Source: Planctomycetota bacterium
Lineage (GTDB): Bacteria; Planctomycetota; UBA1135; GCA-002686595
DNA length: 64,000 nt
Direction of reading: 5' to 3'
Assembly: GCA_029259595.1 (NCBI GenBank)
Contig: JAJDEW010000146.1
Coordinates: 1 to 64,000 of the forward strand
The notes below the pieces were generated by a model. The model was given only the letters and a program-made list of their open reading frames with translations. It made no database searches and was not told the DNA's origin. Below, piece after piece: positions 3,087 through 22,784 of the stretch (the stretch's first letter is position 1; the number at the start of each line of letters is the position of its first letter). Position numbers and translations under genes: made by a program.

Positions 3087-3120
3087 CGCACTCTAATCGG
3101 AGTGCGATTGGAGTGCGATC
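3087..3120. repeat. operator-like dyad plus tandem 11-bp repeats
   Basis: CGCACTC (3087-3093) and GAGTGCG (3100-3106) form a 7-bp inverted repeat around a TAATCG centre. GGAGTGCGAT then occurs twice, at 3099-3108 and 3110-3119, an 11-base period that puts both copies on the same face of the helix. The element overlaps the predicted start site of the promoter at 3058-3085. Tandem half-sites of this kind are typical for ribbon-helix-helix repressors, and the first gene downstream encodes an RHH-like protein. Autoregulation is therefore a reasonable inference. Confidence 0.45.
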
Positions 3121-3279
3121 GGTGTTCAGCCAGGAGCCTCCCGGCGCCGATGAGTCCTGCCCTCAGGGGCCGGACGCTCCGTTGCAGGCCCTCCCGGGCA
3201 CGCGCGCAGGCCGGCTCCCCGAGCCCCAGGCGCCCTCCCGAAGCGGTCCCGTCCCACCACCCTCCCGGCGTTCAACACG

Positions 3280-3513
3280 ATGAACAGCAAGGTCACGGTC
3301 AAGATCCCGCGGCCGCTCTACGAGCGGATCCAGCAGGTGATCACCGACTCGGGCTTCTCCAGCGCCACCGACTTCATCGTGTTCGTGCTGCGGGATCTGG
3401 TGGGCGACAGGGCCCTCACCAAGGACGAGCCGGAGCAGGGCGTCAAAGCCCAGTTCACTCATGACGAGCTGTCGGAGATCCGCCGCAAGCTCGAGAACCT
3501 CGGCTACCTCTAG
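3280..3513 (+). CDS. small ribbon-helix-helix-like protein with LxxLGY tail
   Basis: The 77-residue product begins with a strand (KVTVKIP), then helix A (YERIQQVITDSGF) and helix B (SATDFIVFVLRDLV), the order of a CopG/MetJ-type RHH fold. It is related along its length to the 65-residue protein at 19117-19314: both have a (S/H)xx(D/E)FIVxVL core and a charged linker, and the tails are RRKLENLGYL here and EKLKGLGYIS there. It opens a four-gene same-strand cluster (sat 82 bases downstream, then an AP-superfamily protein, then cysC). It may be a DNA-binding autoregulator acting on the repeats at 3087-3120. Alternatively, it may be an adaptor for the AP enzymes that works through its C-terminal helix. 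No toxin partner is adjacent. Confidence 0.75.
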   Translation: MNSKVTVKIPRPLYERIQQVITDSGFSSATDFIVFVLRDLVGDRALTKDEPEQGVKAQFTHDELSEIRRKLENLGYL

Positions 3514-3595
3514 CCGCCCGCCGGCCCACGGCCGGCCCCCCCGAACGAACCCAAACCCCTACTCCCGAGTCATCAGAGAAGCGAGCAAGACGAAC

Positions 3596-4747: not shown

Positions 4748-4864
4748 CGCACACCCGCCCGGGCGGCGCGCCGCGTGCAGCCGCCGCCCGGTGCGGGGTC
4801 AGTTCCCCCTCTCCGACCACCTCTCCGACCACCACTCCCCCAGACTCACTTGGGAGACCCGATC

Positions 4865-5824: not shown

Positions 5825-5877
5825 GCCCGGACTCACGAATCAAACTCACGAGCCACTAACGACATCACAATTTTTCC

Positions 5878-6411
5878 ATGAGCAAAAAAGGATTCACCCT
5901 CTGGTTCACCGGGCTCTCCGGCAGCGGCAAGAGCACTCTGGCCCAGTTTCTCACTCCCAAGCTGCGCGAGCTCGGCGTTCCCGTCGAGGTCATGGACGGC
6001 GACGAGGTTCGCGAAAACCTCAGCAAGGGCCTCGGCTTCTCGAAGGAGGATCGCGACACGAACATCCGCCGCATCGGATACGTCGCGAACCTGCTCTCGC
6101 GCAACGGCGTCTGCGCCATGACGGCGGCCATTTCGCCGTACCGTTCGGTGCGCCGCGAAGTCCGCGACGGGTGCAAGGCCGAGTTTGTCGAGGTCTTCGT
6201 GAAGTGCCCGCTCGAGGTCGTCGAAGAGCGCGACACGAAGGGGCTCTACAAGAAGGCCCGCGCCGGCATCATCAAGAACTTCACCGGCATCAGCGACCCC
6301 TACGAGGAGCCCGAGAAGCCCGAGATCGTCGTCGATACCGCGGAGGAGTCGATCGAGCAGTCTGCCGAGAAGGTGCTCGAGTTCCTTCGCTCGCGTAGCC
6401 TGATCGGCTGA
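5878..6411 (+). CDS. cysC: adenylylsulfate kinase (APS kinase)
   Basis: CysC phosphorylates APS at the 3' hydroxyl to give PAPS. The 177-residue product carries a Walker A motif GLSGSGKS (12-19), the DGD motif ([17 protein letters not shown]) and the APS-binding segment [12 protein letters not shown]. The conserved [12 protein letters not shown] and [10 protein letters not shown] stretches typical of the family are also present. Length is normal for the stand-alone enzyme. It ends the RHH-sat-AP-cysC cluster. Bases upstream of the start are unusually AT-rich (a run of A and T just before the ATG), and a long hairpin follows the stop. With Sat it forms a complete PAPS-forming route in one transcription unit. 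Confidence 0.95.
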
Positions 6412-6858: not shown

Positions 6859-7965
6859 TCAGGTGGTCGCGGGAATCTGCAGGATCGAGGCGTCGAAGGC
6901 GTCCTGGCGCCCGTCCTGGGTCCGCGCCACGGCCACGAGTGTGTGCTCACCCGGACCGATCTTTTGGGTCGAACCCTCGATGTACCAGTCGGTCTGGCGG
7001 AAGCTCTCCCCGCCTTCGCTCGCCGCCAAGGGCTCTGCCTTCTCCCGATGTTGGGCCTCGAACCAGTGCTCGCCGTCGATGCAGACCCGCACGTCCGCGA
7101 TGGGCGACATGTGGATCGGTGATCGGACCCAACCGCCCACCCAGGCGTGATCGTCCTCGACCGTGGACTTCGAGATCGAGCCGCGCAGGATCGGTGCGTT
7201 GCTCCACGAAGCGAGACCGGGCACCGGACCGGGAGACATCACGTAGAGATCCTGGATGCGCCAGAGCTCGCGCTCGAGGATCCAGACGTTCTCGATCCCC
7301 ATGGTCTTGCACATCGAGCGCACGGACCGAGGCGTGACGAAGGTCGCCCCGTACTCGTCGAGGTCGAGCAAGCGGCTCTCGCTGTGGCGTTGGTAGGTGA
7401 AGCCCGTCGGGTGCCGGTCGACATCGCCCAAGACCTCTTGGGTGTGCGTCGAGAAGACGAGCAACCCGTCCGGTTCGAGGGCGGAGAAGAGCTTCGGCAG
7501 GAAGCCTCGGAAGCGGTATCCGGGCAGGTGTGTGAAGAGTGAGCCGACCCAGATCAGCGAGTACTTGCGCTCGAGGTCGAGGGTGTCGGGGTCGTTCGTG
7601 GAGTAGAAACCAGGGACGCCGAAGCTCGAACGCACGAAGTCGACGGCGGGCTTCAGAACGTCCGAGGCCCAGACGTCCTGCGGGTCCCAGCGCTGGACGA
7701 GAAACCTCATGAGACGCCCATAGCCGCATCCGAAGTCCAGGATCGACTTCGGCTTGCGGTCCGCCTGCTCGAGGACGTTGAGCAGCACGCGGAAGGCCTC
7801 GTAGCCGCTTCGCATGTACTCGAAGGAGCGACGGGCCGCGTCCATTTGCAGGACGTCGTCGCGGTACATGTCGTCGTCGGGATGGATGGAGTCGTCGGGG
7901 ATGATCTCCGGGGACTGGGCGGCGAACCAGTGCCCCATCAAGCGTTGCTCGAGTTCTTCGGACAT
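6859..7965 (-). CDS. class I SAM-dependent methyltransferase with C-terminal beta domain
   Basis: The 368-residue protein has a Rossmann methyltransferase domain. Motif I is SILDFGCGYGR (residues 74-84), the acidic strand-2 region is VWASDVLKP, and LIWVGSLFTHLP and LFSALEPDGLLVFSTH follow, as in Methyltransf_11/25. Residues from about 265 onward form a separate beta-rich domain (VRVCIDGEHWFEAQH ... GEHTLVAVARTQDG) like the Ig-like appendages of some polysaccharide-modifying enzymes. The substrate cannot be predicted. The start used (MSEELEQRL) leaves a 13-base gap to the RND pump stop; an earlier start would overlap that gene by 38 bases. Its place at the end of the efflux operon may be incidental. 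Confidence 0.8.
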   Translation of the reverse strand: MSEELEQRLMGHWFAAQSPEIIPDDSIHPDDDMYRDDVLQMDAARRSFEYMRSGYEAFRVLLNVLEQADRKPKSILDFGCGYGRLMRFLVQRWDPQDVWASDVLKPAVDFVRSSFGVPGFYSTNDPDTLDLERKYSLIWVGSLFTHLPGYRFRGFLPKLFSALEPDGLLVFSTHTQEVLGDVDRHPTGFTYQRHSESRLLDLDEYGATFVTPRSVRSMCKTMGIENVWILERELWRIQDLYVMSPGPVPGLASWSNAPILRGSISKSTVEDDHAWVGGWVRSPIHMSPIADVRVCIDGEHWFEAQHREKAEPLAASEGGESFRQTDWYIEGSTQKIGPGEHTLVAVARTQDGRQDAFDASILQIPATT

Positions 7966-7978
7966 GCTCGGGGGGAGT

Positions 7979-10900
7979 CTATCTCGAAGCGACGCTCTCG
8001 GACACCACCGGATCACCCTCGGGGCGGCTCGTTCCGAACAGCCAGCGGCCGAACCTCCCGAGGTCTTCCAGGATCAGGTATCCACAGGGCACGAGCACGA
8101 GCGAGATGCTCGTCGAGAACATGACGCCGAAGGCCATCGAGATCGCCATCGGGATCAGGAATTGGGCCTGGACGCTGCGCTCGAGAATCAAGGGCATGAG
8201 CCCGGCAAATGTCGTGAGCGAGGTCAGGAGGATCGGACGGAAGCGCTCGATGCCGGCCTGCCGCGCGGCTTGGGCGACGGGCACGCCCTCGCGGACCTTG
8301 CGGTTCACGAAGTCGACCAGGACCAGGCTGTCGTTCACGACGACTCCCGCCAGAGCCGCGAGACCCAGCACCGACAACATCGACAGGTCGAATCCCATGA
8401 TCCAGTGCCCGATGATCGCACCGACGAGACCGAAGGGGATGGCCGACATGACGATGAAGGGCTGGAGATAGGAGCGGAAGGGGATCGCCATCAGCCCGTA
8501 GATCGCGAACAGCGCCATCAAGAAGTAGCGTTGCATCGCGGCGACGGTCTCGGACTGGTCGTTGCTCTGGCCTTCCAGCGACCAGTGGACGCCCGGGTGA
8601 GCGCCCTGAATGCCCGGGAGGACGTCCTTCGAGAGCCCCGCCAGGATCTCGTTCGCGTTGCCCTCCGCAGCGTCGACGTCGGCCAGCACGTGGATCGTAC
8701 GTTGGCGATTCGTTCGTTGGATCGTGGCGTAGCCGCGTCGTCCCTCGACCACGGCGACGTCCGAGAACGGCACCTCTGCACCTTCCGGCGTCCGGATGCG
8801 CATCGACTCGAGCCCGAAGAGCGTGCGCCGATCCTCGTGGGGGTAGCGCACCATGACCTTGACCTCGTTGCGGCCGCGCTGGATGCGTTGAACCTCTTCG
8901 CCGTAGAAGCCCTGGCGAACCTGTCGCGCTAGGTCGAGCCGCGTGAGCCCGAGGGACTCGGCTTCCGGCGTGATGTCGAGCGCAGCCTCTTCCTTGCCGC
9001 CGCGGAAGGAGTCCGTGACGTCGCGGACGCCGGGGTAGCCCGCGAGGGCCGTCTTGAGCTGCTCCGCCACGCTACGCAGCTCGTCCACGTCGCGTCCAGC
9101 CAGCTGGATGTCGATCGCGTCGCCGGCGGACATGACAGCGGAGTTGAACGAGACCTCGACCGCACCCGGAATCGGACCGCACAGCTCGCGCCAGCGCCTG
9201 GCGATCTCGTTGCCGGTGATCTCGCGTTGCTCCGACGGGATCAGCTCGATGACGACCTCACCGAGGTTGGGAGCAACTTGGACGGAAGCGCCGGAAGTCC
9301 GTTGTTGCTGGGCGAGGTAAGGCTGCTCGCCGACCGAGGACATGACGTTGCGCACCACGTGCGCTCCGGTCTCGGTCACCTCGCCAGCGAGCTCGCGAAC
9401 CAGCGCTTCGGCCGCGGCCTCGATCTGTTGGACCGCACCGCGGGTCGCGCGGACGGACGTGCCCTGGGGCATCCGGACTTGCGACGCCAGGATGTCGCCT
9501 TCGATGTCCGGGAAGAATACGAACTTGACCCAACCTCGTCCCGTCGCACCGATCGTCAGGAGCAGGCTCAGCACGCCGATCGCGACCGCCACGTATCGGA
9601 AGCGCAGGGCCCGGTCGAGCGTCGGCCGGTACACACCCGTGGCGAAGGCGAGCAAGAGCTTCGAGAAGGTGCGCTGAAGCGCCACCCACCAACGGAACGG
9701 GGCGATACGGGCGAGCCGCTCGGCGAACTTGCCCTGATGGGAGAGGTGCGCCGGGAGGATCCACTGCGATTCGATGACCGAGAACAGCAGGGCCGGAATC
9801 ACGATCGCGGGGATGACGGCGAAGAACTTGCCCAACGTGCCGGGCAGGAAGGCCATCGGAACGAAGGCGACACACGTCGTCAGGACCGCGAAGATCACGG
9901 GGACGGCCACGTCGGTCGCGCCCTTGACGGCTCCTTCGACGTCGTGGTTCCCGCGCTCGTGCTCCTGATAGATGCTCTCGCCGACGACGATCGCATCGTC
10001 GACGACGATCCCGAGCACCAAGATGAACGCGAAGAGCGAGAGCATGTTGAGCGACTGGTCGAGCCCCGGCATCAGCATGAGCACGCCGAGGAACGAGATC
10101 GGGATGCCGATCGTCACCCAGAAGGACAGGCGGAACTTCAGGAAGAGCGCGAGGACCAGGAACACGAGCAGGAGCCCCTGAAGGCCGTTCTCCAGGAGCA
10201 GGTCCAGGCGGTCCTGAAGCCAGACGGCGTTGTCCTGCCAGGTGCTGATGCTCACACCGCTGGGCAGGTTCGGGCGCGTGCGCTCGACGTAGTCGTGCAC
10301 GAGGGCGGAGACCTCGAGTGCGCTCTCGTCGCCGACGCGGAAGACCTGCACCATCACGACCGGAAGGCCGTTGAAGCTGGCGCTCTGGTCGGTGTCCTCG
10401 AAGCCGTCCACGACGGTCGCGACGTCCCGCAGGAGGACGCGCGTGCCGTCGGGTTGCGAGATGACGACCAGTTCTTCGAAGTCCGCGCCGACGTAGGCTT
10501 GGGCCTGGGTGCGGAGCAGGATCTCGCCGCCTTCGGTCTTGATCGAGCCCCCCGAGAGGTCGAGCGAGCGCGCGCGTACGGCGTTCGCGACATCGTCGAA
10601 GTCGAGCCCGTAGCGGCGCAGCTCGCTCTCCGCGACTTCGATCGAGATCTCGTACGGACGAGCGTTGGCCAGCTCGACCTGGCTGATGCCGTCGAGCGCG
10701 TTGATGTCGTCGCGAACGTGCTCGCCGAGTTCCTTCAGCGTTCGCTCGGCCACGTCGCCGTAGATCGCGACGTTGATGACCTGCTGGCGCATCATGAGCT
10801 CTTCGATCACCGGCTTCTCGGCCTCCTCGGGGAAGGTCGAGATGGCGTCGACTCGCGTCTTCACGTCGTCGAGGACACGGCGGGGGTCTTCGCCGGGCGT

Positions 10901-11188
10901 GACCTCGACCCGGACGCTGCCCAGGCCTTCGACCGCGGTCGACGACAGCTTCTTGATGCCTTCGAGGCCACTCAGCTCTTCCTCGATGGGGACGCAGATG
11001 CCTTCCTCGACCTCTTCGGGGGCCGCGCCCGGGTAGGGGACGCTGACCGAGATCATCTCGAGCGAGAATTCGGGGAAGAGCTCGATCTTGACGGCCGGCA
11101 CCGTCATGAGCCCGCCCACGACCAACGAGAGCATGAGCAGGTTCGCAGCCACCGGGTTGGTGGCGAACCAGGAGACGATGTTCTTCAT
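7979..11188 (-). CDS. RND-family efflux pump inner-membrane transporter
   Basis: This is a 1069-residue AcrB/MexB-type proton-driven pump. Twelve TM segments are expected, two large periplasmic loops are present, and the first TM follows MKNIVSWFATNPVAANLL directly. The TM4 proton-relay motif GIVVDDAIVVGE (near residue 405) has the Asp-Asp pair. The second half contains the matching VVNDSLVLVDFVNRKVREG segment of TM10-11. It overlaps the upstream HlyD gene by 4 bases. With that adaptor and the outer-membrane factor it forms a complete tripartite exporter. The C-terminal 20 residues are polar. Substrates are unknown; HAE-type multidrug or lipid export is most likely. Confidence 0.95.
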   Translation of the reverse strand: MKNIVSWFATNPVAANLLMLSLVVGGLMTVPAVKIELFPEFSLEMISVSVPYPGAAPEEVEEGICVPIEEELSGLEGIKKLSSTAVEGLGSVRVEVTPGEDPRRVLDDVKTRVDAISTFPEEAEKPVIEELMMRQQVINVAIYGDVAERTLKELGEHVRDDINALDGISQVELANARPYEISIEVAESELRRYGLDFDDVANAVRARSLDLSGGSIKTEGGEILLRTQAQAYVGADFEELVVISQPDGTRVLLRDVATVVDGFEDTDQSASFNGLPVVMVQVFRVGDESALEVSALVHDYVERTRPNLPSGVSISTWQDNAVWLQDRLDLLLENGLQGLLLVFLVLALFLKFRLSFWVTIGIPISFLGVLMLMPGLDQSLNMLSLFAFILVLGIVVDDAIVVGESIYQEHERGNHDVEGAVKGATDVAVPVIFAVLTTCVAFVPMAFLPGTLGKFFAVIPAIVIPALLFSVIESQWILPAHLSHQGKFAERLARIAPFRWWVALQRTFSKLLLAFATGVYRPTLDRALRFRYVAVAIGVLSLLLTIGATGRGWVKFVFFPDIEGDILASQVRMPQGTSVRATRGAVQQIEAAAEALVRELAGEVTETGAHVVRNVMSSVGEQPYLAQQQRTSGASVQVAPNLGEVVIELIPSEQREITGNEIARRWRELCGPIPGAVEVSFNSAVMSAGDAIDIQLAGRDVDELRSVAEQLKTALAGYPGVRDVTDSFRGGKEEAALDITPEAESLGLTRLDLARQVRQGFYGEEVQRIQRGRNEVKVMVRYPHEDRRTLFGLESMRIRTPEGAEVPFSDVAVVEGRRGYATIQRTNRQRTIHVLADVDAAEGNANEILAGLSKDVLPGIQGAHPGVHWSLEGQSNDQSETVAAMQRYFLMALFAIYGLMAIPFRSYLQPFIVMSAIPFGLVGAIIGHWIMGFDLSMLSVLGLAALAGVVVNDSLVLVDFVNRKVREGVPVAQAARQAGIERFRPILLTSLTTFAGLMPLILERSVQAQFLIPMAISMAFGVMFSTSISLVLVPCGYLILEDLGRFGRWLFGTSRPEGDPVVSESVASR

Positions 11189-12357
11189 CGGGGGACTTCC
11201 GTCGTCCGGACCCGCATGCCTTCGACGGCGGACTCGACCGTCGAAACGACGACGCGTTCACCCTCCGCGAGCCCCCGCGTCAGCACGACCGTGTCGCGCA
11301 GCGATTGGTGGACTTCGATCGCGCGGATGCCGAGCCGGCCGTCCTTCTCCACGAAGACGCGTCCTCCGCTGCGGAGCGCGGTACGTGGAAGGAGGATCGC
11401 TTCGTCCAGAGTCTTGCCGCGAATCGTGGCCTCGACGAACATGCCGAGGCTCAGCGGCGCGCGCGGTACATCCGTGCGCATCGCGAAGGGGTCTTCCACC
11501 GTCGCGACCAAGATGACCATGCGGCTCTTCTTGTCCAACTCGCCTTCGGTGCGAATGATGCGCCCCTGCCAGCTGCGCTGCTCGCCGGCGAAGCGCGCCT
11601 CCAGCGTGACCGTCGGACCGTCTTCGATCTCGCCCTCGTAGGCGAACGGGATCTCGAGGTGCGCGAGCTCGGCGTCAGGGATCGGAAGACGGACCTCGAA
11701 GCGGTCGATGGCGTAGAGCCGCGCCAGTTCCTGGCCTGGTTGGACGAAGTCTCCGCGCGCGACGTTCTGCGAGCGCACTCGACCTTCATAGGGAGCGCGG
11801 ACGAGGCAACGGTCGATGTCGCGGCCGGCCTTTTGGATGCGAGCCCGCGCCGCGGAGAGGGCAGCACGCGCTTCTGCGAGCTGAGGCTCGCGCAGAACCA
11901 GCGGATCCGGTGTGCGATCGGGGTGAGATTGCTCCCAGTCGTCCTTCGCGATCGCCGCGTCGGCCTGCTCTCGAGCGAGACGCAACTCGGCCTGGGCCAG
12001 ACCGAGGCGCGCTTCTTCGAGCGCGAGCTCGTAGTCGGTTGCGTCGAGCCGGACCAGGACCTCGTCCTCCGCGACGAAGCCCCCGTTCTCGAGTCCCTTC
12101 GAGACCTCGAGGACCCTGGCCACGACCTCGGCCAAGAGACGTGTCTGGGTGCCCGGTTCGACCGTTCCGTGTGTCAGCACGGACGACGTGTGCGGTCCGA
12201 TTTCGACGGGAACGACGCGTACGAAGGGTGGCGGCGTGTCGACGCGCGTGCTCTCGACGAGCGGCTTCGTGCGGATCATCCAGGACGAGACGAGGACCCC
12301 GACCACGATCACGGTCGTGGCGAGAACGAGGTTGGCCAGGAGGCGTTGTTTGCTCAT
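11185..12357 (-). CDS. HlyD/AcrA-type membrane fusion protein
   Basis: This 390-residue periplasmic adaptor has an N-terminal signal anchor (residues ~8-27). A split lipoyl domain follows (AEVVARVLEVSKGLENGG near residue 75 and VRAPYEGRVRSQNVARGD near 190), separated by a coiled-coil hairpin of ~100 residues. Beta-barrel and membrane-proximal domains complete it. It links the RND pump to the outer-membrane factor. The gene overlaps the outer-membrane factor upstream and the pump downstream by 4 bases each, which implies translational coupling and a fixed stoichiometry. Confidence 0.93.
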   Translation of the reverse strand: MSKQRLLANLVLATTVIVVGVLVSSWMIRTKPLVESTRVDTPPPFVRVVPVEIGPHTSSVLTHGTVEPGTQTRLLAEVVARVLEVSKGLENGGFVAEDEVLVRLDATDYELALEEARLGLAQAELRLAREQADAAIAKDDWEQSHPDRTPDPLVLREPQLAEARAALSAARARIQKAGRDIDRCLVRAPYEGRVRSQNVARGDFVQPGQELARLYAIDRFEVRLPIPDAELAHLEIPFAYEGEIEDGPTVTLEARFAGEQRSWQGRIIRTEGELDKKSRMVILVATVEDPFAMRTDVPRAPLSLGMFVEATIRGKTLDEAILLPRTALRSGGRVFVEKDGRLGIRAIEVHQSLRDTVVLTRGLAEGERVVVSTVESAVEGMRVRTTEVPR

Positions 12358-13781
12358 CGGTCGAGCTCCGCAGGCGATTCCACGCCCGTTCCTTCGAAGC
12401 CCCCACCCAGTGCGAGGTGGAGGTCGACGCGCGTTTCGAGGCGTCGGCGACGCGCCGCCAGGTGGTCGATCTCGCTCGCGAGCGCACGTCGCTGGGCTTC
12501 GAGGACGAAGAGCAGGTCGGTGAGTCCGGCGCGGTAACGCTCTTCGGCGAGCTCGCGCGCGGCGTTGGCGTCGGCGCTCGCGTCGGCCAGGTGGCGCTCT
12601 TCCTCGGCCAGGGCCGACTCGGTCGCGAGCGCGATTTCGACCTCGGAGAAGGCCCGCAGGAGCCGCGCGGCGAAGACTTCGGTGGCCTGCTCGACGCGGG
12701 CCTCGGCCAGCTCGACCCCGGCACGCAGGCGACCGCCCTGGAAGATCGGCTGGACGATGTTGCCGACGAGAGACCAGACGCTGAAGTCGTCGTCGGTGAG
12801 GTCTGCGAGCTCGTCGCTGGCGCGCCCTCCCGAGGCCGTCAACGAGATTCGTGGGTAGAGCGACGCACGGGCCGCACCGAGGCGCGCGTCGCTCTCGCGC
12901 AGCCGAGCTTCGGCCGCGGAGAGATCGGGACGGCGGCCCAGGAGCTCGGCCGGCAGGCCTACGGGTGGGGTCTCCGGCACCGCGGGCAGGTCGTCGCCGG
13001 CGACGAGCGCTCCCCCGGGATAGCGCCCGAGCAAGACCTCGAGCAAGCGTTCGGTGCGGGCGACCTGAGCACGCCGCTGCTCGAGGAGCGCGCGTGCGGA
13101 AGCCAGGTTGCTCTTCGCGAGGCGCAGGTCGAGGGCGTCGGCGACGCCCGACTCGAAGCGCTTCGACACGACGTCGGTGTTGCGGGCGAAGGTCTCGACC
13201 GTGCGTACGGACAGCTCGAGTTGCAGGCGTGCCTCCTGCCAGGCGAACCAGGCCTTGGCCGTCGCGGCCGCGAGCGACTGACGCGCCGCCTCATGGTCGC
13301 TCCGCGTGGCGAAGAGCTCCTCTTCGGCCGCTTCCGCCTGGGCGGCCAGTCGGCCCCAGAGATCGAGCTCCCAGGAGATGTCGAGGTCAGCGCCGAAGGT
13401 CGTGGACGTGCTCTCGAGGACGTCGCCACCGGGCACGGGCAAACCGACGAAGATCTGTTTGCGGCGGGAGCCCGACCCCCCGGCGCTCACCGACGGGAGC
13501 CGGTCGGCCCCGGCGATGCGGGCTTGCGCCAGCGCAGCGTGGATACCGGCGGCGCTGGCCGCGAGATCGCGGTTCGCGGACAGGGCCTCGTCGATGACCG
13601 CGTCGAGCGCAGGGCTCCCGAAGGTCTGCCACCAGGGCTCGCCGGGGACCGCGCCCGCGCCGTTCCCCGCTTGCCAGGCGGGCGGGACGTCGAGCTCCAG
13701 GTCTTCGAGAGCGGGGGCTTCGCGGGGGGTGAGGCAGGCCGAGGCGAACACAGGAACGAGAACGAGGAAGGGGTGCTTCAT
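12354..13781 (-). CDS. NodT-type outer-membrane efflux lipoprotein
   Basis: This 475-residue TolC-like protein has a lipoprotein signal (FASAC, Cys16), typical of the OprM/NodT group. The PPAWQAGNG and EPWWQTFGSPALDAVIDEAL segments mark the usual N-terminus, and two repeated helical halves contain the conserved NRDLAAS, RRPDLSAAEARLRE and GGRLRAGVELAEARV stretches. It provides the outer-membrane channel of the pump. The start ATG overlaps the tetR stop (ATGA), and its own stop overlaps the HlyD start in the same way. The longer upstream extension is out of place because the signal peptide would be internal. Confidence 0.93.
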   Translation of the reverse strand: MKHPFLVLVPVFASACLTPREAPALEDLELDVPPAWQAGNGAGAVPGEPWWQTFGSPALDAVIDEALSANRDLAASAAGIHAALAQARIAGADRLPSVSAGGSGSRRKQIFVGLPVPGGDVLESTSTTFGADLDISWELDLWGRLAAQAEAAEEELFATRSDHEAARQSLAAATAKAWFAWQEARLQLELSVRTVETFARNTDVVSKRFESGVADALDLRLAKSNLASARALLEQRRAQVARTERLLEVLLGRYPGGALVAGDDLPAVPETPPVGLPAELLGRRPDLSAAEARLRESDARLGAARASLYPRISLTASGGRASDELADLTDDDFSVWSLVGNIVQPIFQGGRLRAGVELAEARVEQATEVFAARLLRAFSEVEIALATESALAEEERHLADASADANAARELAEERYRAGLTDLLFVLEAQRRALASEIDHLAARRRRLETRVDLHLALGGGFEGTGVESPAELDR

Positions 13782-14434
13782 GAGCGCCCGCCTGTGCGGG
13801 AGGTCGATGCGGGAACCGGGGCGCGCAAGCCGCCCACGGCGAAGGCGACGAGCTGCTGCGCGACCACATCGGGATCCGCGGACGAGCAGAGGCCGTCGGA
13901 CACGATGGCGAGCCGACCGGGGTCGGACAGCTGCGTGCACAGGGCCCCGATGACGAAGTGCAGGCGCCAGAAGAGGACCTCGGGCGGGATCCCTGGCAAC
14001 GCGGCTTGGAGGAGCGGGAAGAAGCGGCGCTGCACCTCGGCGAACACGCGCCGGATCGTTTGGGCGTGCTCACCGGTCACCGAGTTGCTTCGCCCGAGGA
14101 TCTGCAGGAAGCGCGCGAAGCCCGGGTCCCCGCCCTTCGCCAGGCGCAGGGCCGGCAGGAGCAGGACCTCGAGCAGTTCTTCGAGACGCGGGACGCTTCC
14201 CTGGGCTTCCAGCTGGTCGAGTCGGGCGAGGCGCTCGGCATTGATCGGGCGGACGCGACGCTCGAAGACGGCCTGGAAGAGCCCCAGCTTGTGGCCGAAG
14301 TGGTAGTTGACGGCCGCGAGGTTGACCTCGGCCGCCCGGGTGACGGCCCGCAGGGAAGTGCCATCGAACCCCTGGGCGGCGAAGAGCTCCTCCGCGGCGT
14401 CCAGAATGCGGTCTTTCGTGTCGGGGGTGGCCAT
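13778..14434 (-). CDS. TetR/AcrR-family transcriptional repressor
   Basis: The 218-residue protein has a canonical TetR N-terminal HTH (RILDAAEELFAAQGFDGTSLRAVTRAAEVN, the recognition helix being NLAAVNYHFGHK). The ligand-binding domain resembles the CerR/DUF1956 type (FLQILGR, FPLLQAALPGIPPEVLFWRLHFVIGAL). It is the first gene of the efflux operon and overlaps the outer-membrane factor by 4 bases. It therefore probably represses its own operon and is released by a pump substrate. A dyad immediately upstream of its start is a likely operator. Confidence 0.92.
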   Translation of the reverse strand: MATPDTKDRILDAAEELFAAQGFDGTSLRAVTRAAEVNLAAVNYHFGHKLGLFQAVFERRVRPINAERLARLDQLEAQGSVPRLEELLEVLLLPALRLAKGGDPGFARFLQILGRSNSVTGEHAQTIRRVFAEVQRRFFPLLQAALPGIPPEVLFWRLHFVIGALCTQLSDPGRLAIVSDGLCSSADPDVVAQQLVAFAVGGLRAPVPASTSRTGGRS

Positions 14435-14753: not shown

Positions 14754-16916
14754 ATGATCATCCGGAAGCGGATCGTACGAATCGCGCTCGCGACGTTCGC
14801 CAGTGCCGCCGTCCTGGCGGCGCCTGCCTCGGCCTACATCGGTCCGGGTGCGGGCTTTGCCGCGGCCGGTAGCGTGCTCGTCCTGCTCGGCACCTTCGTC
14901 CTGGCTTTCGGAATCGTTCTGATCTGGCCGCTCAAGGCCGTCGTGCGACTCGTCGCCTTCCGTGGCAAGACGAAGCCGAAGGTCAAGCGGATGGTGGTCG
15001 TGGGTCTCGACGGCTTCGATCCCGGACTCGCGCAGCGCTTCTCCGAGGAAGGGCTGATGCCCAACTTCAAGAAGCTCCAGGACGAGGGCTGCTTCCACGA
15101 GCTCGGGACCGCGTTCCCGTCGATCTCTCCCGTGGCCTGGTCGAGCTATGCGACGGGCGTCGACGCTTCGCGCCACAACATCTACGACTTCCTCACGCGC
15201 GATCCTTGTTCGTACTTCCCGATGCTGAGCTCGACGGACATCCGTTCGGTCCCGAAGACGCTCAACTTGGGGCTCGCGAAGGTGCCCTTCGGTCAGAAGA
15301 CGATCTACAAGCTCCTGCAGAAGAGTCAGCCCTTCTGGAAGCTCCTGGGTGCCAAGGGCATCTGGTCGTCGATCATCCGCGTCCCGATCACGTTTCCGCC
15401 GCAGAAGTTCAAGAACGGCACGTTGCTCGCCGGCATGTGCGTGCCCGACCTGCAGGGGACGCAGGGTTCGTTCTCGTTCTATTCGACCAAGAAGAAGAGC
15501 GGCACTCATACCGGCGGACAGCAGTACGTCGTGCGCTTCAAGGACGGCAAGGTCGAATCGAAGCTGACCGGGCCTCCGGGCAAGGACGGGCACGCGATGA
15601 AGTGCCCCTTCACCTGCTCGTTCGACACGTCGACCGGCAAAGCGACCTTCACCGTCGGGACCGAGTCCGCGACGGTCGGGAAGCGGGAGTACACGCCCTG
15701 GTTGGTCATCCCGTTCGACGGCGTGACCGGGATCGCCCGCTTCTACGTCCAGGACTGGGACGGCGAGGAGGTCGGGATCTACGTGACCCCGATCAACATC
15801 AACCCGGACAGTCCGGCGATGCCGATCTCGCACCCGCTCGTCTATTCGATCTATCTGGCGAAGATGATGGGGCCCTACGCCACGCTGGGCCTGGCCGAGG
15901 ACACCTGGGCGCTGAACGAGCGCGTCGTCGACGAGGAGGCCTTCCTCAAGCAGGCCTGGCTCATCTTCGAAGAGCGCAAGAAGATGCTCTGGGACGTGCT
16001 CGAGAAGACCAAGAAGGGCTTCGTCACGGTCGTCTTCGATACCACCGACCGCATCAGCCACATGTTCTACCGCTACCTCGATCCGGATCATCCGGCCAAC
16101 GAGGGCAAGGACACGGAGAAGCACAAGAACGTCATCCGCGACCTGTACGCGAAGATGGACGCCTTCCTGCCCGAGATCCGCAAGAAGGTCGGCGACGACA
16201 AGGACACCGTCCTGATGATCATCTCCGACCACGGCTTCTGCAATTTCACGCGCGGAGTGAACATGAACACGTGGCTGAAGCAGGAGGGCTACCTCGTGCT
16301 GAAGGACGGTCACGAGACTTCGCCGGACTGGTTCGCGCACGTGGACTGGGACAAGACCAAGGCCTTCACGCTCGGGCTCACCGGCATCTTCATCAACCGC
16401 AAGGGACGTGAGGCCAAGGGCATCGTGGAGAAAGGTCCCGAGCTGAACGCCCTGTGCAACGAGCTCAAGACGAAGCTGGAGAAGCTGGTCGACCCGAAGT
16501 CCGGCGACCGCGTCGTCAAGGAAGCCTTCCTGACAAGCGAGCTGCACGGGGGCCCCTACGCCGACATGGCACCGGAGATCCTGCTGGGCTACAACAAGAC
16601 CTTCCGGCACTCCTGGGACTGTGCGACGGGCTCTGTCTCGGAGGAGATCTTCACGGACAACACGAAGTCGTGGTCGGGCGATCACTGCGTCGACCCGCGG
16701 CTCGTTCCCGGCGTCTTCTGGTGCAACCGGAAGATCAACGGCTCCGCGCCCAACATCATGGATCTGGCGCCGACGGCGCTGAGTCTCTTCGGTGTCGACA
16801 CACCGCGCTACATGCAGGGTCGCGACCTCTTTGCCCCGTCCCACGAAACGACCGGCGCCCCGAGCTCGTCTCCCGAGGAGCGTGAACTGGTGACGAGTGA
16901 GAAGGCATCCTCATGA
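14754..16916 (+). CDS. membrane-anchored alkaline-phosphatase-superfamily (COG3379-like) hydrolase I
   Basis: The 720-residue protein has a cleavable signal (ending APASA near residue 27). The YIGPGAGFAAAGS motif and a TM helix (about 38-60) follow, then a large extracytoplasmic AP domain. Visible active-site elements are VVVGLDGFDP (Asp86), the nucleophile region FPSISPVAW (Ser125 or a neighbour), TDRISHMFYRYLDPDHPA, MIISDHGFCNF and the C-terminal MDLAPTALSLFGV. This is the pattern of predicted phosphodiesterase/phosphomutase proteins grouped as COG3379. The start was placed at the ATG before the signal peptide. It overlaps the next AP gene by 4 bases and opens a five-gene operon. The substrate is unknown; nucleotide, phospholipid or surface-polymer headgroups are candidates. 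Confidence 0.88.
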   Translation: MIIRKRIVRIALATFASAAVLAAPASAYIGPGAGFAAAGSVLVLLGTFVLAFGIVLIWPLKAVVRLVAFRGKTKPKVKRMVVVGLDGFDPGLAQRFSEEGLMPNFKKLQDEGCFHELGTAFPSISPVAWSSYATGVDASRHNIYDFLTRDPCSYFPMLSSTDIRSVPKTLNLGLAKVPFGQKTIYKLLQKSQPFWKLLGAKGIWSSIIRVPITFPPQKFKNGTLLAGMCVPDLQGTQGSFSFYSTKKKSGTHTGGQQYVVRFKDGKVESKLTGPPGKDGHAMKCPFTCSFDTSTGKATFTVGTESATVGKREYTPWLVIPFDGVTGIARFYVQDWDGEEVGIYVTPININPDSPAMPISHPLVYSIYLAKMMGPYATLGLAEDTWALNERVVDEEAFLKQAWLIFEERKKMLWDVLEKTKKGFVTVVFDTTDRISHMFYRYLDPDHPANEGKDTEKHKNVIRDLYAKMDAFLPEIRKKVGDDKDTVLMIISDHGFCNFTRGVNMNTWLKQEGYLVLKDGHETSPDWFAHVDWDKTKAFTLGLTGIFINRKGREAKGIVEKGPELNALCNELKTKLEKLVDPKSGDRVVKEAFLTSELHGGPYADMAPEILLGYNKTFRHSWDCATGSVSEEIFTDNTKSWSGDHCVDPRLVPGVFWCNRKINGSAPNIMDLAPTALSLFGVDTPRYMQGRDLFAPSHETTGAPSSSPEERELVTSEKASS

Positions 16917-19072
16917 TCCTCCCCCGCTGGACCGTGTACCCCGCTCTCGTGACCCTTGCGGCCACCCTCGTGATCGCAATCCCGAGCTCGAACGACGAGG
17001 ATCCCTTCGAGGGAGCCGCCGTGCGCGAAGCCACGGCCTTGCGCACCCTCGAGTCGAACCCTTCGCCCGGGCCCTTCGAGCACAAGCCGCTGGTCGTCCT
17101 CGGGATCGACGGGATGGATCCCGACATCCTGGCGGAGACGATCGAGCTCTTTCCCGACGACATGAAGAACTTCCGCTGGCTGATCGAAGCCGGCGACGGC
17201 ATCCAGTCGCTCGGGACCTCGTGTCCGCCGCAGAGTCCCGTGGCCTGGTCAAACTTCATCACCGGGATGGATCCCGGTGGCCACGGCATCTTCGACTTCA
17301 TCCACCGCGACCTCATGACGCGCGGTCCGCTCGGATCGACCACGGTCAGCGCGCACCCGTCCGAGGTGCCGCTCTGGGGCGACTGGCAGATCCAGCTCGG
17401 CGGTGACAGCCCTTCGAACCGCACCGGCCGTGCCTTCTGGCAACGGTTGATGGACCACGGCGTGCCGGCCGACATCTGGCGCATGCCCATCAACTTCCCG
17501 GTCGAGGAGTCGCGCGGCGTCTCCTTCCCGGGCATGTTGACGCCGGCTCTGGACTCGGCTTACGGGCAGTGCACCTTCTTCACGACCGACCCGGCGCACG
17601 CTGCCGCGATCGACTACGAGAAGGTCGAGCGCGTCGACGAATGGGATGGGCAGATCAACGCTCGTCTCGTCGGTCCCGCGAACCCCTTCAAGAAGAAGAA
17701 CAAGGCCGAGACGGCGGCGTTCACGGTCTACGTCGACCGTGAGAACGGCGCGGCGATCTTCGATGTCGGCGCCAAGAAGGTCGTTCTTCGGCCGGGGCAG
17801 TGGAGCGCCTTCGTCCCGCTCGAGTTCGAGCTGCTGCCGCTCGGTGCGATGAACATGAGTGGCATCTGCCGCTTCTACCTGCGCTCGATCGACCCCGAGG
17901 TCGAGTTCTACGTCTCGCCGGTCAACTTCGATCCGACGAACCCTGCCGTGCCCGTTTCGATGCCGGAAAGCGCCAGTGCGGAGCTGGCCGAGGCGATCGG
18001 GCTCTACTACACGCAGGGCATGGCGGAGGACGTCAACGCGCTGAAGTACGAGGTCCTGACCGACGCCGAGTTCATGCAGCAGGTCGAGCTCGTGTACCGC
18101 GAGCGGCGCAAGATGCTCGACCACGCCATCGACGTCTATCTCGCGGACAAGGACGGGGGCCTCCTGTTCTTCTACTTCTCCACCGTCGATCTCGGGTGCC
18201 ACATGATGTGGCGGCATCACGATGCCTCGCATCCCGCTCACGACGACGCGATCGCGAAGCAAGACTCCTCGCGCTGGTCCGGTCGCGAAGGCAGCACGTG
18301 GAAGGACACCGTCTACGACCTGTATCGCAAGATGGACCCGGTCCTCGGTCGCCTCCGCGAGCGGCTGGGTGACGACGTGGCCCTGATCGTGATGTCGGAC
18401 CACGGCTTCGCGCCCTACCGGCGTGAGTTCGATCTGAACCGCTGGCTGTGGGAAGAGGGCTATCTCGTGTTGAAGGACGGCTTCGAGCCGGAGAGCGAGG
18501 AAAAGCCTTCCGACTCCGACAAGGTCTACATCTTCGGTGGTGGCGTGGATTGGGAGAAGACGAAGGCCTACGGCATGGGCTTCAACGGGCTCTACCTGAA
18601 CCTCCAGGGGCGCGAGCTCGACAACCCCGAAACGCCCGAGAACGAAGCCGGCATCGTGGCCCAAGGCTCCGAGGCCGAGCGGCTCTTGAAGGAGATCGGC
18701 GACAAGCTCGAACGCCTCGTCGATCCCGTGACCGGTCTGAAGCCTGTCTTGAGCTGCGACTTCGCCACCGACGTGTACCACGGCGCGCGCGTCCCGGAGG
18801 CTCCCGACTTGTTGGTCGGATACAATGCCGGGTACGGGAACTCGGATCCCGCGTCAACCGGTCGCATCACGCATACCGTCTTGGCGGACAACACCGGGGG
18901 CACCTTCAACGGCAGCCACCTGATGGCCCCGGAAGTCGTTTCCGGCGTGCTCTTGACCAACCGACCCGTTCGGGAAGGTCAGCACAAGCTCGAAGACCTC
19001 ACCGTCGAGGTCCTGAAGCACTACGGCATTGCGAAGCCCGACGAGTTGCGGGGTCACCCCGTGCTCGAATGA
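16913..19072 (+). CDS. alkaline-phosphatase-superfamily (COG3379-like) hydrolase II
   Basis: This 719-residue paralogue of the upstream gene lacks the YIGPGAG anchor and has a single N-terminal signal or anchor segment (about 8-24). Metal and nucleophile motifs match: VVLGIDGMDP (Asp66), CPPQSPVAW (Ser108), DLGCHMMWRHHDASHPAH, LIVMSDHGFAPY and a C-terminal LTVEVLKHYGI. Both genes share the (S/I)PVAWSxxxTGxD nucleophile loop and the VWSxxHLM-like ending, so they arose by an old tandem duplication. The ATGA overlap with gene I suggests coupled translation and possibly a heterodimer or two sequential steps. The substrate is unknown. Confidence 0.87.
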   Translation: MILPRWTVYPALVTLAATLVIAIPSSNDEDPFEGAAVREATALRTLESNPSPGPFEHKPLVVLGIDGMDPDILAETIELFPDDMKNFRWLIEAGDGIQSLGTSCPPQSPVAWSNFITGMDPGGHGIFDFIHRDLMTRGPLGSTTVSAHPSEVPLWGDWQIQLGGDSPSNRTGRAFWQRLMDHGVPADIWRMPINFPVEESRGVSFPGMLTPALDSAYGQCTFFTTDPAHAAAIDYEKVERVDEWDGQINARLVGPANPFKKKNKAETAAFTVYVDRENGAAIFDVGAKKVVLRPGQWSAFVPLEFELLPLGAMNMSGICRFYLRSIDPEVEFYVSPVNFDPTNPAVPVSMPESASAELAEAIGLYYTQGMAEDVNALKYEVLTDAEFMQQVELVYRERRKMLDHAIDVYLADKDGGLLFFYFSTVDLGCHMMWRHHDASHPAHDDAIAKQDSSRWSGREGSTWKDTVYDLYRKMDPVLGRLRERLGDDVALIVMSDHGFAPYRREFDLNRWLWEEGYLVLKDGFEPESEEKPSDSDKVYIFGGGVDWEKTKAYGMGFNGLYLNLQGRELDNPETPENEAGIVAQGSEAERLLKEIGDKLERLVDPVTGLKPVLSCDFATDVYHGARVPEAPDLLVGYNAGYGNSDPASTGRITHTVLADNTGGTFNGSHLMAPEVVSGVLLTNRPVREGQHKLEDLTVEVLKHYGIAKPDELRGHPVLE

Positions 19073-19116
19073 ACTGACGATTCCAAGAACGAACGAGATC
19101 AAGCAGAGGAACAGAC

Positions 19117-19314
19117 ATGTTTGGTGGTGGAAACAAGATCAAGCTGGAGGCCGACCTCCTGGACCGCATCAAGAGGGTCGCCGAGGTCGCCGGCTACGCG
19201 TCGCACGAGGAATTCATCGTGCACGTACTCGAGAAGGAGCTCGCCCAGTTCGAGGACGCGGGCTCCGATGAAGACATCGTCGAGAAGCTGAAGGGACTCG
19301 GCTACATCAGCTGA
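19117..19314 (+). CDS. small ribbon-helix-helix-like protein with LxxLGY tail
   Basis: The 65-residue product is homologous to the 77-residue protein at 3280. Its strand NKIKLEA, helix A LLDRIKRVAEVAGY and helix B SHEEFIVHVLEKELAQ give an RHH-like core, an acidic linker follows, and the tail is EKLKGLGYIS. A purine-rich stretch (AAGCAGAGGAACAGAC) precedes the ATG. It sits between AP gene II (44 bases) and the three-TM protein (50 bases). The same RHH type occurs with AP-family genes twice in this window, so a functional link to these enzymes is likely. DNA binding and protein-protein adaptor roles are both possible. Confidence 0.75.
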   Translation: MFGGGNKIKLEADLLDRIKRVAEVAGYASHEEFIVHVLEKELAQFEDAGSDEDIVEKLKGLGYIS

Positions 19315-19364
19315 CGTCGCTTCCGGGGGCATCGACCCCTGACGAACCCGACCCCCGCACCCGA

Positions 19365-20237
19365 ATGAACGCGATCAATCGCCTGTTCGACTCGCTCTTC
19401 AACGTCATCCTCACCCCCTTCGAATGGCTGGGCGAGGGGATGGCGCTGGTCTTGGTCAGTGGTGTCTTCGGCATCCTCTGTCTGCTCCTGTTCAAGCAGG
19501 TCAGCTGGCAGAAGGGGATCAAGGGCACCAAGGACAAGATCAAGGGCAACATGATCGCGATCCGGCTCTATCAGGACGATCTCGTGATCGTCGGGAAGTC
19601 GGTCGGAAAGGTGCTCCTGCGCAACTTTCAGTACCTCAGCCTGAACTTCGGGCCGATCTTGCCGCTCGTGCCTCCGATGGTCCTCGTGGCCGCGCAGTTC
19701 GTCGTCCGCTACGGCTTCGATCCGATCCCGGTCACTCCGACGGAGGAGATCGCCGATCTGCTGGCGGGCCAAGGCACGCTGATCGAGATCGAGATGAAGC
19801 CCGGGCACGAGGCCGAAGTCGCGAGGCTCGAGGTCAAGTTGCCGGCGGACCAGCTCGTGGCGGTGTCCCCGCTCGGGCGTTCGGTTGCCGCCGGAGTCGC
19901 GTACATCGAGGTCGTCGCGATTGGCTCCGGTTCCCAGGAGATCGAGTTCTTGATCGATGGGCGCCGCGTCGGGACCAAGGAGATCGTGACCGGTGACGAG
20001 CGTCCCCGGGTCATGCAACCGGAGCGCGTGTCCAGCTTCTGGTCGGCCTGGTTGTGGCCGGCCGAGGACACCTTCGCCAACGACTCGCCGATCGCCCGCG
20101 TCGCCTTCGCCTACCCCGAGCGAAAGCTCGCGATTCCCTACATGCCGGACGGACCGCTCGGCGTGTTGCTGGCCTTCTTCCTGTCGACGATCCTCTTCGG
20201 CGTGGCGATCCTCAAGCCGCTGAACATCCAGATCTGA
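19365..20237 (+). CDS. three-TM membrane protein, unknown function
   Basis: The 290-residue protein has a TM helix at about 24-43 and a cytoplasmic amphipathic stretch (SWQKGIKGTKDKIKGNMIAIRLYQDDL, split here by function only). A second TM region at ~95-115, a soluble beta-rich domain (~120-265) and a C-terminal TM at ~268-287 follow. The TM, charged helical hairpin, TM order recalls the YidC/Oxa1/EMC3/DUF106 superfamily of insertases, but the rest of that fold is not obvious and I do not assign it. It is in the AP operon, with 50 bases before it and 7 bases after it. It may insert, anchor or export the AP enzymes or their lipid substrate. Confidence 0.65.
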   Translation: MNAINRLFDSLFNVILTPFEWLGEGMALVLVSGVFGILCLLLFKQVSWQKGIKGTKDKIKGNMIAIRLYQDDLVIVGKSVGKVLLRNFQYLSLNFGPILPLVPPMVLVAAQFVVRYGFDPIPVTPTEEIADLLAGQGTLIEIEMKPGHEAEVARLEVKLPADQLVAVSPLGRSVAAGVAYIEVVAIGSGSQEIEFLIDGRRVGTKEIVTGDERPRVMQPERVSSFWSAWLWPAEDTFANDSPIARVAFAYPERKLAIPYMPDGPLGVLLAFFLSTILFGVAILKPLNIQI

Positions 20238-20244
20238 CGGCACC

Positions 20245-22065
20245 TTGCGCAGGAACGAGCCGTATCCGTTCCACGTTCGGCTGCTCGTCGGACTGTGCCT
20301 CGTCGGCCTCGGGGTCGCCGGAGCGGGCTGTGGAACCTCGACGCCCGAGCGTCGTCCGTCGGGACTCCTGATCACTCTCGACACGACCATTCCCGAGGCG
20401 CTCGGGGTCTACGGCGGTCAGGGCGACCTGACGCCGAACCTCGACCGTCTGGCGGGAGAGGGCATCGTCTTCGAGAACGCGCGCACGTCGGCTCCGATCA
20501 CGCTGCCGGCCCACGCCTCGATGTTGACCGGGCTCTATCCCGTGCGGCACTCGGTTCGGCGCAATGGTTCGATGGTGCTCTCGGGCGAGGCCTCGACGCT
20601 GGCAGAACAGGCGCGCGAAGCGGGCTTCGCGACCGCGGCCGTGGTCTCGGCCGTCGTGCTCGATCCGGAGTACGGTTTGGACCAGGGCTTCGATCTCTAC
20701 CTGGCTCCGCCCCTGCCCGAGCGCGCGACCGAGCACCTCGACGCGAGCTGGACGGCCGCGGACGTCGTCGAGCGCGCGCTGCTCTGGCTCGAGAGCGTGC
20801 CGGACGAGCGACCGTTCCTGCTCTGGGTCCACTTCTACGACCCGCACTTTCCCTACGAGCCGCCACCTGCCTTCCTCGAGCATGCGAACGGGGATCCGTA
20901 CCTGGGTGAGATCGCCGCCATGGACGCCGAGATCGGTCGGTTGCTCGCGGGTCTCGAGGCCGCGGACCGACTGGACGACCTCTGGGTCGTCGGCGTCGCC
21001 GATCACGGGGAGGGCTTGGGCCGCAACGGGGAGGACACCCACGGCTACTTCGTCTACGACGCGACCTTGCGCGTGCCGTTCTTCGTTCGCCCGCCCGCTG
21101 CGTTGGCCAAGGGGCGCGCCGGCGAACGGGTGGAAGAGCCGGTGAGTGTCGTCGACGTGCAGCCGACGCTCGCCCGGGCGCTCGGGCTGACGCAGTCCCG
21201 GGGCGCCCTGGACGTGGATGGCGTGGACGTCCTCGCGCTCGCGGACACGGCCGAGCGCGGCGTCTACTTCGAGAGCTACTTCGGTGTCGTCGCCTTCCAC
21301 TGGAGCCAGTTGGCCGGCTGGGCGACCCGAGATCACAAGTACGTCCACTCCAGCCAACCCGAGCTGTTCGATGTCCGCTCGCCCGCGGGCGAGGGCGCGA
21401 ACACGATCGACGCCCGACCCGAAGCGGTCGAGGCGGCGCGTGCCGCGATCGCGGCGCTCGCCGCGCGGCCGCGCCTCCCCGTGGCTGGCGTCGACGCCGA
21501 GTTCCGCGGCGTGCTGGGTCAGATCGAGCGGCTGGGCTACGCGGGCGCATCTTCGACCGAGCTGGGCCTGCCCGAACCGCTCGAGACGAGCGACTTGCCG
21601 AGCCCGCACGAGCGTGTCGCGGCCTACGCGCAGTTCGCCCAGTGCCAGAAGCTCCTGGCCGAAAACGGTTCGCGCGAGACCGTCGTGGACCTGCTCGTCG
21701 AAGTGTTGCGCGAGAACCCGATGAACCACAAGGCGCAGTTCCATCTCGGTCATGCGCTCATGGATCTCGGGCGCTGGGCCGAGGCGATCACCGCCTTCCT
21801 CGCCGTTCTGCCGCATCCCGGCGGGGAGCGCATTCCGGCCGAGCTCAACCTGGCCGTCTGCTACTACAACGCGGGCCAACCCGAAGAGGCGCTGCGGCGA
21901 TTCGAAAGCGCCCTGGCCGACACGATCGGACCGCCCGGGGCGTTGGAAACCTACATCCGCCTCCTGGAGGCGGGGGGACGTCACGACGAAGCGCAGCGTC
22001 AACGGGAACGCCTCGCCCGCGAACGACCGATGTCGCCCACGCTCGTCGGACCCGGCGGCAACTAG
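20245..22065 (+). CDS. sulfatase-like lipoprotein with C-terminal TPR region
   Basis: The only sensible start is TTG 20245, seven bases after the previous stop; it gives a lipoprotein signal with GAGC lipobox (Cys29). The AP/sulfatase domain follows: GLLITLDTTIP, the nucleophile motif PITLPAHASMLTGLYP (Thr86 where sulfatases have Cys/Ser), FLLWVHFYDPHFPY, GVADHGEGLGRNGED and FFVRPP. Residues ~420-430 read GQIERLGYAGA, the LxxLGY element. The last ~140 residues form TPR helices (NHKAQFHLGHALMDLGRWAE, AELNLAVCYYNAGQPEEALR). With 606 residues it matches periplasmic TPR-sulfatase proteins. The Thr nucleophile argues against formylglycine activation, so phosphodiester or phosphonate cleavage should be considered. 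It is the last gene of the AP operon. Confidence 0.87.
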   Translation: MRRNEPYPFHVRLLVGLCLVGLGVAGAGCGTSTPERRPSGLLITLDTTIPEALGVYGGQGDLTPNLDRLAGEGIVFENARTSAPITLPAHASMLTGLYPVRHSVRRNGSMVLSGEASTLAEQAREAGFATAAVVSAVVLDPEYGLDQGFDLYLAPPLPERATEHLDASWTAADVVERALLWLESVPDERPFLLWVHFYDPHFPYEPPPAFLEHANGDPYLGEIAAMDAEIGRLLAGLEAADRLDDLWVVGVADHGEGLGRNGEDTHGYFVYDATLRVPFFVRPPAALAKGRAGERVEEPVSVVDVQPTLARALGLTQSRGALDVDGVDVLALADTAERGVYFESYFGVVAFHWSQLAGWATRDHKYVHSSQPELFDVRSPAGEGANTIDARPEAVEAARAAIAALAARPRLPVAGVDAEFRGVLGQIERLGYAGASSTELGLPEPLETSDLPSPHERVAAYAQFAQCQKLLAENGSRETVVDLLVEVLRENPMNHKAQFHLGHALMDLGRWAEAITAFLAVLPHPGGERIPAELNLAVCYYNAGQPEEALRRFESALADTIGPPGALETYIRLLEAGGRHDEAQRQRERLARERPMSPTLVGPGGN

Positions 22066-22208: not shown

Positions 22209-22784
22209 GTGTTTTCCGACGGAGTCGAACGCGCCCTGCGAGCCTCGTACGCTGCCCATGAGGGCCAGTTCCGCAAGGGGACGCTGCCCGTGCCCTACGT
22301 CCTCCATCCGATCCACGTCTCGCTCTTGCTCGCGCGCTGTGGCTACGACGACGAGGTTCTGCAGGCGGCCATCCTGCACGACGTCGTCGAGGACTGCGAC
22401 GACTGGACCATCGGGCGGGTCGAGTCCGAGTTCGGCACTCGTGTGGCCGGGATCGTGGACGAGCTGACCGAGGACAAGAGCCTCGGCTGGGAAGCCCGCA
22501 AGCGCGGGGCGATCGAGTCCGTTCCCCGCCTCTCGGACGAGGCGGCGGCGGTCAAGGCCGGCGACAAGCTGCACAACCTGCAGAGTTTGCTGCAGGACTT
22601 GGCGGGCGCTTCGGTGCGCGCGGAAGTGTGGGCCGAATTCACCGGAGGGCGCGAGTCGACGCTCCGGATGTCAAAGGAGCTCGTGCAGGCGCTCGAGGCG
22701 CGCGTCGACGCCCGGCTCACGCGTCCCTTGCGCGAGGTGCTGCACGCGTTGCTCGAGCTCGAAGGCGACTCGACGGACGGCTGA
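22209..22784 (+). CDS. Mesh1-like small alarmone hydrolase (HD domain)
   Basis: The 191-residue protein matches the HD domain of RelA/SpoT without synthetase, TGS or ACT domains. The Mn-binding His33 (VLHPIHV), the HD pair His57-Asp58 (AAILHDVVED) and the later Asp in KAGDKLHNLQ are present. The ELTEDKSLGWEARKRG stretch is the characteristic EDK loop of Mesh1-type ppGpp or NADPH phosphohydrolases. It starts with GTG just after a TAGAAT box. It may lower (p)ppGpp or act on related nucleotides. It is probably monocistronic. Confidence 0.85.
   Translation: MFSDGVERALRASYAAHEGQFRKGTLPVPYVLHPIHVSLLLARCGYDDEVLQAAILHDVVEDCDDWTIGRVESEFGTRVAGIVDELTEDKSLGWEARKRGAIESVPRLSDEAAAVKAGDKLHNLQSLLQDLAGASVRAEVWAEFTGGRESTLRMSKELVQALEARVDARLTRPLREVLHALLELEGDSTDG

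Follow-up and report, generated by a model that had tools for sequence, protein, structure and literature searches.

Two AlkP-superfamily enzymes and a predicted archaeal-type Oxa1-superfamily protein in a conserved planctomycete gene unit, often beside sulfate-activation genes

Gene content of the locus

The window analysed here is a 64,000-nucleotide stretch of a Planctomycetota genome (assembly GCA_029259595.1, contig JAJDEW010000146.1, positions 1 to 64,000) and carries five closely spaced open reading frames (ORFs) on the forward strand, named A to E. A (14754-16916) and B (16913-19072) encode nucleotide pyrophosphatase/phosphodiesterase (NPP)-type enzymes of the AlkP superfamily that match PF01663 in Pfam (E-values 7.5e-27 and 2.2e-23), and the two genes overlap by 4 bases (ATGA). 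C (19117-19314) encodes a small protein with a conserved C-terminal tail, ..L(K/R)GLGYIS, which is called ribbon-helix-helix (RHH)-like only, its RHH match being weak (E-value 0.13, below the Pfam cut-off). D (19365-20237) has three hydrophobic segments and no match in Pfam or NCBIfam, and is assigned below to the archaeal (DUF106/EMC3) type of the Oxa1/YidC superfamily, with a predicted immunoglobulin (Ig)/filamin-like domain between helices H4 and H5. E (20245-22065, TTG start) encodes a sulfatase-like lipoprotein with tetratricopeptide repeats (TPR); it has a lipobox and matches Sulfatase at 2e-37. The gaps are 44 bases for B-C, 50 for C-D and 7 for D-E. The initial annotation of this region had listed a tandem COG3379-like pair with a 4-base overlap, followed by RHH-like, three-transmembrane (TM) and TPR sulfatase-like ORFs at most 50 bases apart, and all of these ORFs are present.

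Upstream in the window, at 3280-6411 on the same strand, lies a second group of genes, C'-Sat-E'-CysC. C' (3280-3513) encodes an RHH-like protein (KVTVKIPRPLYERI...KLENLGYL) with no Pfam match. Sat (3596-4747) is an ATP sulfurylase (PF01747, E-value 1.8e-93) and CysC (5878-6411) is an adenosine 5'-phosphosulfate (APS) kinase (PF01583, E-value 2.8e-63), the enzyme that makes 3'-phosphoadenosine 5'-phosphosulfate (PAPS). Between them, E' (4865-5824) encodes an AlkP/sulfatase-family protein (PF00884, E-value 2.8e-6) with the N-terminal sequence GLFGFGKKK. E' has no hydrophobic segment, is predicted to be cytoplasmic, and is kept beside Sat and CysC in relatives. The two groups are contiguous in many relatives, and the link to sulfate-activation genes 10 kb upstream had not been made in the initial annotation.

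Conservation of the A-B-C-D unit

A-B-C-D is colinear in all 50 loci that have at least 8.5 kb of upstream sequence. The genome to which the window belongs (6 Mb) has 97 PF01663 matches, so neighbouring AlkP-family genes are expected occasionally by chance; the recurrence of two AlkP genes followed by C and D in 50 of 50 loci argues that this arrangement is not a chance one. A sulfatase-family gene directly follows D in 2 of 86 loci. The earlier proposal that all five genes form one unit thus stands for A-B-C-D, which stay together in related genomes, and falls for E, whose equivalents are scattered and which lies outside the conserved unit.

Within the family, 34 of the 36 other genomes have D, and across the phylum (Planctomycetota by record titles) 42 of 294 do. 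Outside the phylum, D occurs in records titled Aminicenantes, Acidobacteria, Myxococcota, Binatota and Proteobacteria, and it was unmatched in plasmid and PHROGs searches. Complete planctomycete genomes with the system include Pla86 (CP036296), Poly30 (CP036434) and Pla163 (CP036290). One homologue of D (G331:C1:1767824-1768570) has an in-frame TAG and may be a pseudogene or a sequencing error.

Sat and/or CysC lie upstream of A-B-C-D in 26 of the 50 loci, and the complete order C'-Sat-E'-CysC-A-B-C-D is found in tens of loci, including those of DHS20C15 (L174) and Pla163 (L158). D is also present in 26 of the 30 genomes that bear C' (p 3e-22, a value inflated by shared ancestry; the fairer value, with families collapsed, is p 1e-6), and the two genes co-occur on separate contigs as well (G022, G116, G149, G195, G236, G337). 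We read A-B-C-D as the downstream half of a conserved membrane system with this gene order.

Enzymes A and B

A and B each appear to have a complete AlkP/NPP active site. The metal-ligand and nucleophile set is D86, S125, D432, H436, D492, H493 and H644 in A, and D66, S108, D426, H430, D496, H497 and H669 in B, with conservation of at least 97% in 109 and 114 sequences, respectively; we take these residues to correspond to the NPP positions from their motifs and spacing. All seven positions are thus shared with the NPP branch (PF01663; XaNPP 2gsn; COG3379). Both enzymes differ from it in having Ser rather than Thr as nucleophile, a length of about 700 residues and large inserts, and A also differs in its anchor of signal peptide, YIGPGAG and TM segment. 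NPP structures are among the nearest solved sequence matches of A, and no solved relative of B was found in a PDB sequence search.

The two enzymes are very probably on opposite sides of the membrane, A cytoplasmic and B periplasmic, as judged from their N-terminal sequences. The 109 A proteins have a cleavable signal peptide, a near-invariant YxGPGxG motif, an N-tail of net charge 0, one TM segment, and then a stretch of net charge +7.2 (range +5 to +10). By the positive-inside rule this stretch predicts that the catalytic domain of A is cytoplasmic. B relatives have Sec, lipobox or Tat signals, as read by eye. The view that the locus encodes three periplasm-facing hydrolases is therefore not borne out, and only B and the unrelated E are predicted to face out. 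YIGPGAG occurs once in the genome, in A, and no phylum genome searched has it more than once; at least two exact matches in genomes without D are unrelated ORFs. The motif marks A but adds little beyond the linkage.

AlkP-family genes accompany the system at other positions as well. Several families have a third AlkP-superfamily protein, A'', encoded ahead of C' and bearing a signal-like N-terminus (L190:13563-16154, L200:5950-8634), and in Aminicenantes (L176, L178) a shorter AlkP protein without a signal precedes A.

Protein D

D had been described as an unrecognised three-TM protein; profile searches make it recognisable as a probable member of the Oxa1/YidC superfamily. A profile built from 58 D proteins finds two kinds of match in the PDB. 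Filamin repeats match the stretch between TM2 and TM3, and the archaeal YidC MJ0480 (5C8J) matches at an E-value of 0.0012; TM1, the hairpin and TM2 align in the same order, and TM3 gives a separate, low-scoring alignment. A search of 119 genomes of the phylum with PF01956 identified D-length bridging proteins above the cut-off (38.1 and 33.6 vs 27.1 bits; L203, L204). In hhalign these align with the D profile over 252 columns, most of the length (probability 97.6, E-value 3.6e-12), and they find MJ0480 independently at 3.2e-6. The D core profile with the two bridging sequences added reaches MJ0480 at 1e-9 as the sole significant match, and outside the Ig region MJ0480 is the only significant PDB match in three profile searches. 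For scale, a 112-residue piece of the accepted member MJ0480 finds bacterial YidC2 at no better than 0.016.

The AlphaFold (AF2) model of D (pLDDT 96.7, pTM 0.89) has the elements EH1 (2-20), H1 (24-46), H2 (49-68), H3/H4 (73-116), the Ig domain and H5 (263-281). The Oxa1 superfamily has the element order EH1-H1-H2/H3 hairpin-H4-h4h5-H5 (PMC8675477), and the D model follows this order, with the Ig domain in place of h4h5. The hairpin was placed on the cytoplasmic side from its charge (+7). D is very likely an Oxa1-superfamily protein.

D most resembles archaeal YidC (MJ0480/Ylp1, DUF106; PF01956 EMC3_TMCO1) in its predicted order of EH1, TM1, basic cytoplasmic hairpin, TM2 and TM3, and in the lack of the bacterial two-TM h4h5 insert. 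It differs from archaeal YidC in being bacterial, in its Ig/filamin-like h4h5 domain of about 100 residues, in the AlkP enzymes encoded alongside, and in having a canonical YidC encoded elsewhere in its genome. With bacterial YidC (PF02096) it shares a predicted three-helix core and a cytoplasmic hairpin, but it lacks a TM hairpin between H4 and H5, a basic residue in H1 and a PF02096 match. D is accordingly filed, as a prediction, in the Oxa1 superfamily and not as a bacterial YidC.

The bridging homologues come from other planctomycetes and lie in a different operon (L203:9208-17426, L204:4063-12164) that encodes an FG-GAP protein, a membrane-anchored beta-propeller protein of 873-891 amino acids, a PPDK_N/PEP-utilizer protein and the D-like protein.

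C' and its candidate operator

C' and C have a strand-helix-helix pattern, as read by eye, and neither has a significant Pfam RHH match. Boxes of the form AT(T/C/A)GGAG(T/C) are concentrated within 260 bp upstream of C', at 8.65/kb compared with 0.10/kb elsewhere in the same loci (84-fold; some loci overlap, which inflates the counts and hardly affects the rates). The spacing is 11 bp in tandem and 7 and 18 bp in inverted pairs. In the window the candidate operator is at 3089-3126, with ACTCCAAT/ATTGGAGT boxes 11 bp apart. The tandem site occurs at two places in the 6-Mb genome, window position 3099 and C50:20239, each just ahead of a C'-Sat-E' module, and across 61 genomes there are 21 such sites, with 1 for the reversed control. 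Boxes upstream of A were not above shuffles. The boxes upstream of C' look like an RHH operator, with C' as the putative binder, and C' is likely to be an autoregulator.

The second C'-Sat-E' module in the genome (G000:C50:19145-23357, L262) shares the operator boxes; its ATP sulfurylase is more distant (33% identity).

Divergent from C' in the window is a gene for a small lipoprotein (2263-2766, reverse strand; lipobox, weak TPR) with the C-terminal tail LLKQLGYVGN, and lipoproteins with LGY tails are divergent from C' in other modules too (e.g. L262, L263, L265, L266, L268). The tail LxxLGY(L/IS/VGN) ends RHH-like proteins, divergent lipoproteins and the E' of the second module (L262:7987-9357), and is found in both compartments. 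Tyrosine sulfation of these tails was considered and dropped, because A-B-C-D occurs without nearby PAPS genes.

Proposed function and alternatives

The genes probably serve one envelope-related pathway, as the initial annotation proposed. Synteny, the sulfate-activating enzymes, the A and B active sites, the RHH-like character of C and C' and the relation of D to archaeal YidC are drawn from sequence; from these we infer a supply of PAPS, the placement of A and B on different membrane faces, C' as regulator, and a role for D as insertase or assembly partner. Sat and CysC would produce PAPS in the cytoplasm. A, held by its single-TM anchor with the short N-terminal tail (YIGPGAG) outside, would work on the cytoplasmic side and its paralogue B on the periplasmic side; the two may handle successive states of one envelope molecule to which a sulfate or phosphate group is added or from which it is removed. 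D, as an Oxa1-type insertase, would be dedicated to inserting and assembling the short-tailed anchor of A, and the Ig domain of D would be positioned to meet B outside. C', acting on the boxes upstream of its own gene, would set expression of the operon. The model as a whole, like a PAPS-linked modification of the envelope, is plausible, if somewhat short of an even bet, and that D acts mainly on A is a little more tentative. A bolder version, in which E', A and B use PAPS, without a canonical sulfotransferase, to make a sulfated envelope component, bring it across the membrane through D and complete it, with the archaeal/EMC3-type insertase as the membrane core of a novel sulfation machine, is improbable.

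Several observations weigh against the proposed model. The PAPS half is not near A-B-C-D in about half of the loci, nor in those of Aminicenantes, Myxococcota and Binatota, so that the use of sulfate may be specific to certain lineages. Within the cluster no canonical sulfotransferase was identified; PAPS synthesis modules that feed sulfotransferases also encode ATP sulfurylase and APS kinase together, and the present module differs from them in this respect and in the AlkP-family proteins beside Sat and CysC. For D, Foldseek with the full model gave only Ig/filamin-type and unspecific helical matches, with no YidC/EMC3 structure among the matches listed, and with the N-terminal core nothing below an E-value of 0.5 among those listed. 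D itself falls under the PF01956 cut-off (3 of 58 members score at all, at 0.02 or worse), and no Lys or Arg lies within H1 (24-43), unlike the conserved basic residue of the YidC-family groove. The Foldseek and PF01956 results would suit a D that is an unrelated three-TM scaffold, its likeness to archaeal YidC arising from a basic coiled coil and TM composition. This is very unlikely in view of MJ0480 being the sole significant PDB match outside the Ig region, the chain of full-length matches running through proteins that score above the PF01956 cut-off, and the colinear core elements.

The second choice after an insertase is that D translocates a lipid or other substrate in the manner of a scramblase or flippase, handing a lipid-linked intermediate over from A on the cytoplasmic side to B on the periplasmic side instead of inserting A. 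This role would fit a pair of paralogous enzymes predicted to work on either side of the membrane and encoded next to an Oxa1-type protein, but the conserved neighbours include no identified lipid-synthesis gene and the operon of the bridging homologues (beta-propeller, PPDK-like and FG-GAP proteins) has no apparent lipid chemistry; on balance we consider it unlikely, at perhaps the upper end of that range. The bridging homologues adjoin a protein in which a short N-tail and VGPLQA precede the first TM segment, which makes the partner-insertase role slightly likelier than lipid transport. Somewhat less likely again is a function in nucleotide or sulfur metabolism, with A, B and E' hydrolysing APS, PAPS, 3'-phosphoadenosine 5'-phosphate (PAP) or scavenged phospho- and sulfo-esters, D only assembling A, and the envelope unmodified. 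The NPP-family structures among the nearest sequence matches of A and the adjoining Sat and CysC favour it, but a membrane-spanning enzyme pair with a dedicated insertase-like protein seems elaborate for nucleotide turnover, half of the loci lack Sat and CysC in the vicinity, and none of the genes identified in the cluster belongs to sulfate reduction. The original model, a five-gene operon of three periplasmic hydrolases acting on one envelope polymer, drew on the export signals of B and E and on the closeness of all five genes here; the synteny of E and the positive stretch after the TM segment of A contradict it, and little weight can be given to it.

Relation to described systems

Searches of the open-access literature found no description of COG3379 proteins with sulfate activation, of bacterial PF01956 proteins or of planctomycete AlkP/RHH clusters. 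The initial annotation had likewise known of no system of this composition, and none was matched; the parts are of known kinds in a combination not found in the literature searched. The Oxa1 superfamily has been described as YidC in bacteria and as the three-TM DUF106/EMC3 type in archaea and the endoplasmic reticulum. A putative archaeal-type member with three TM segments, present in several bacterial phyla including Planctomycetota and found here in a genome that also encodes a canonical YidC, bears on the evolution of the superfamily, and D bears on the question of whether an insertase can serve a single dedicated partner. D is constantly accompanied by two AlkP enzymes, predicted to lie on either face of the membrane, and by RHH-like regulators, and often by PAPS synthesis, which makes a testable system; complete planctomycete genomes have it.

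Neighbouring genes

In the window the two groups of genes are separated (6862-14434) by a methyltransferase gene, RND efflux genes, an outer-membrane-factor-like gene and a TetR-like gene. Downstream of E, at 22209-22784, is a gene encoding a protein with an HD_4 domain.

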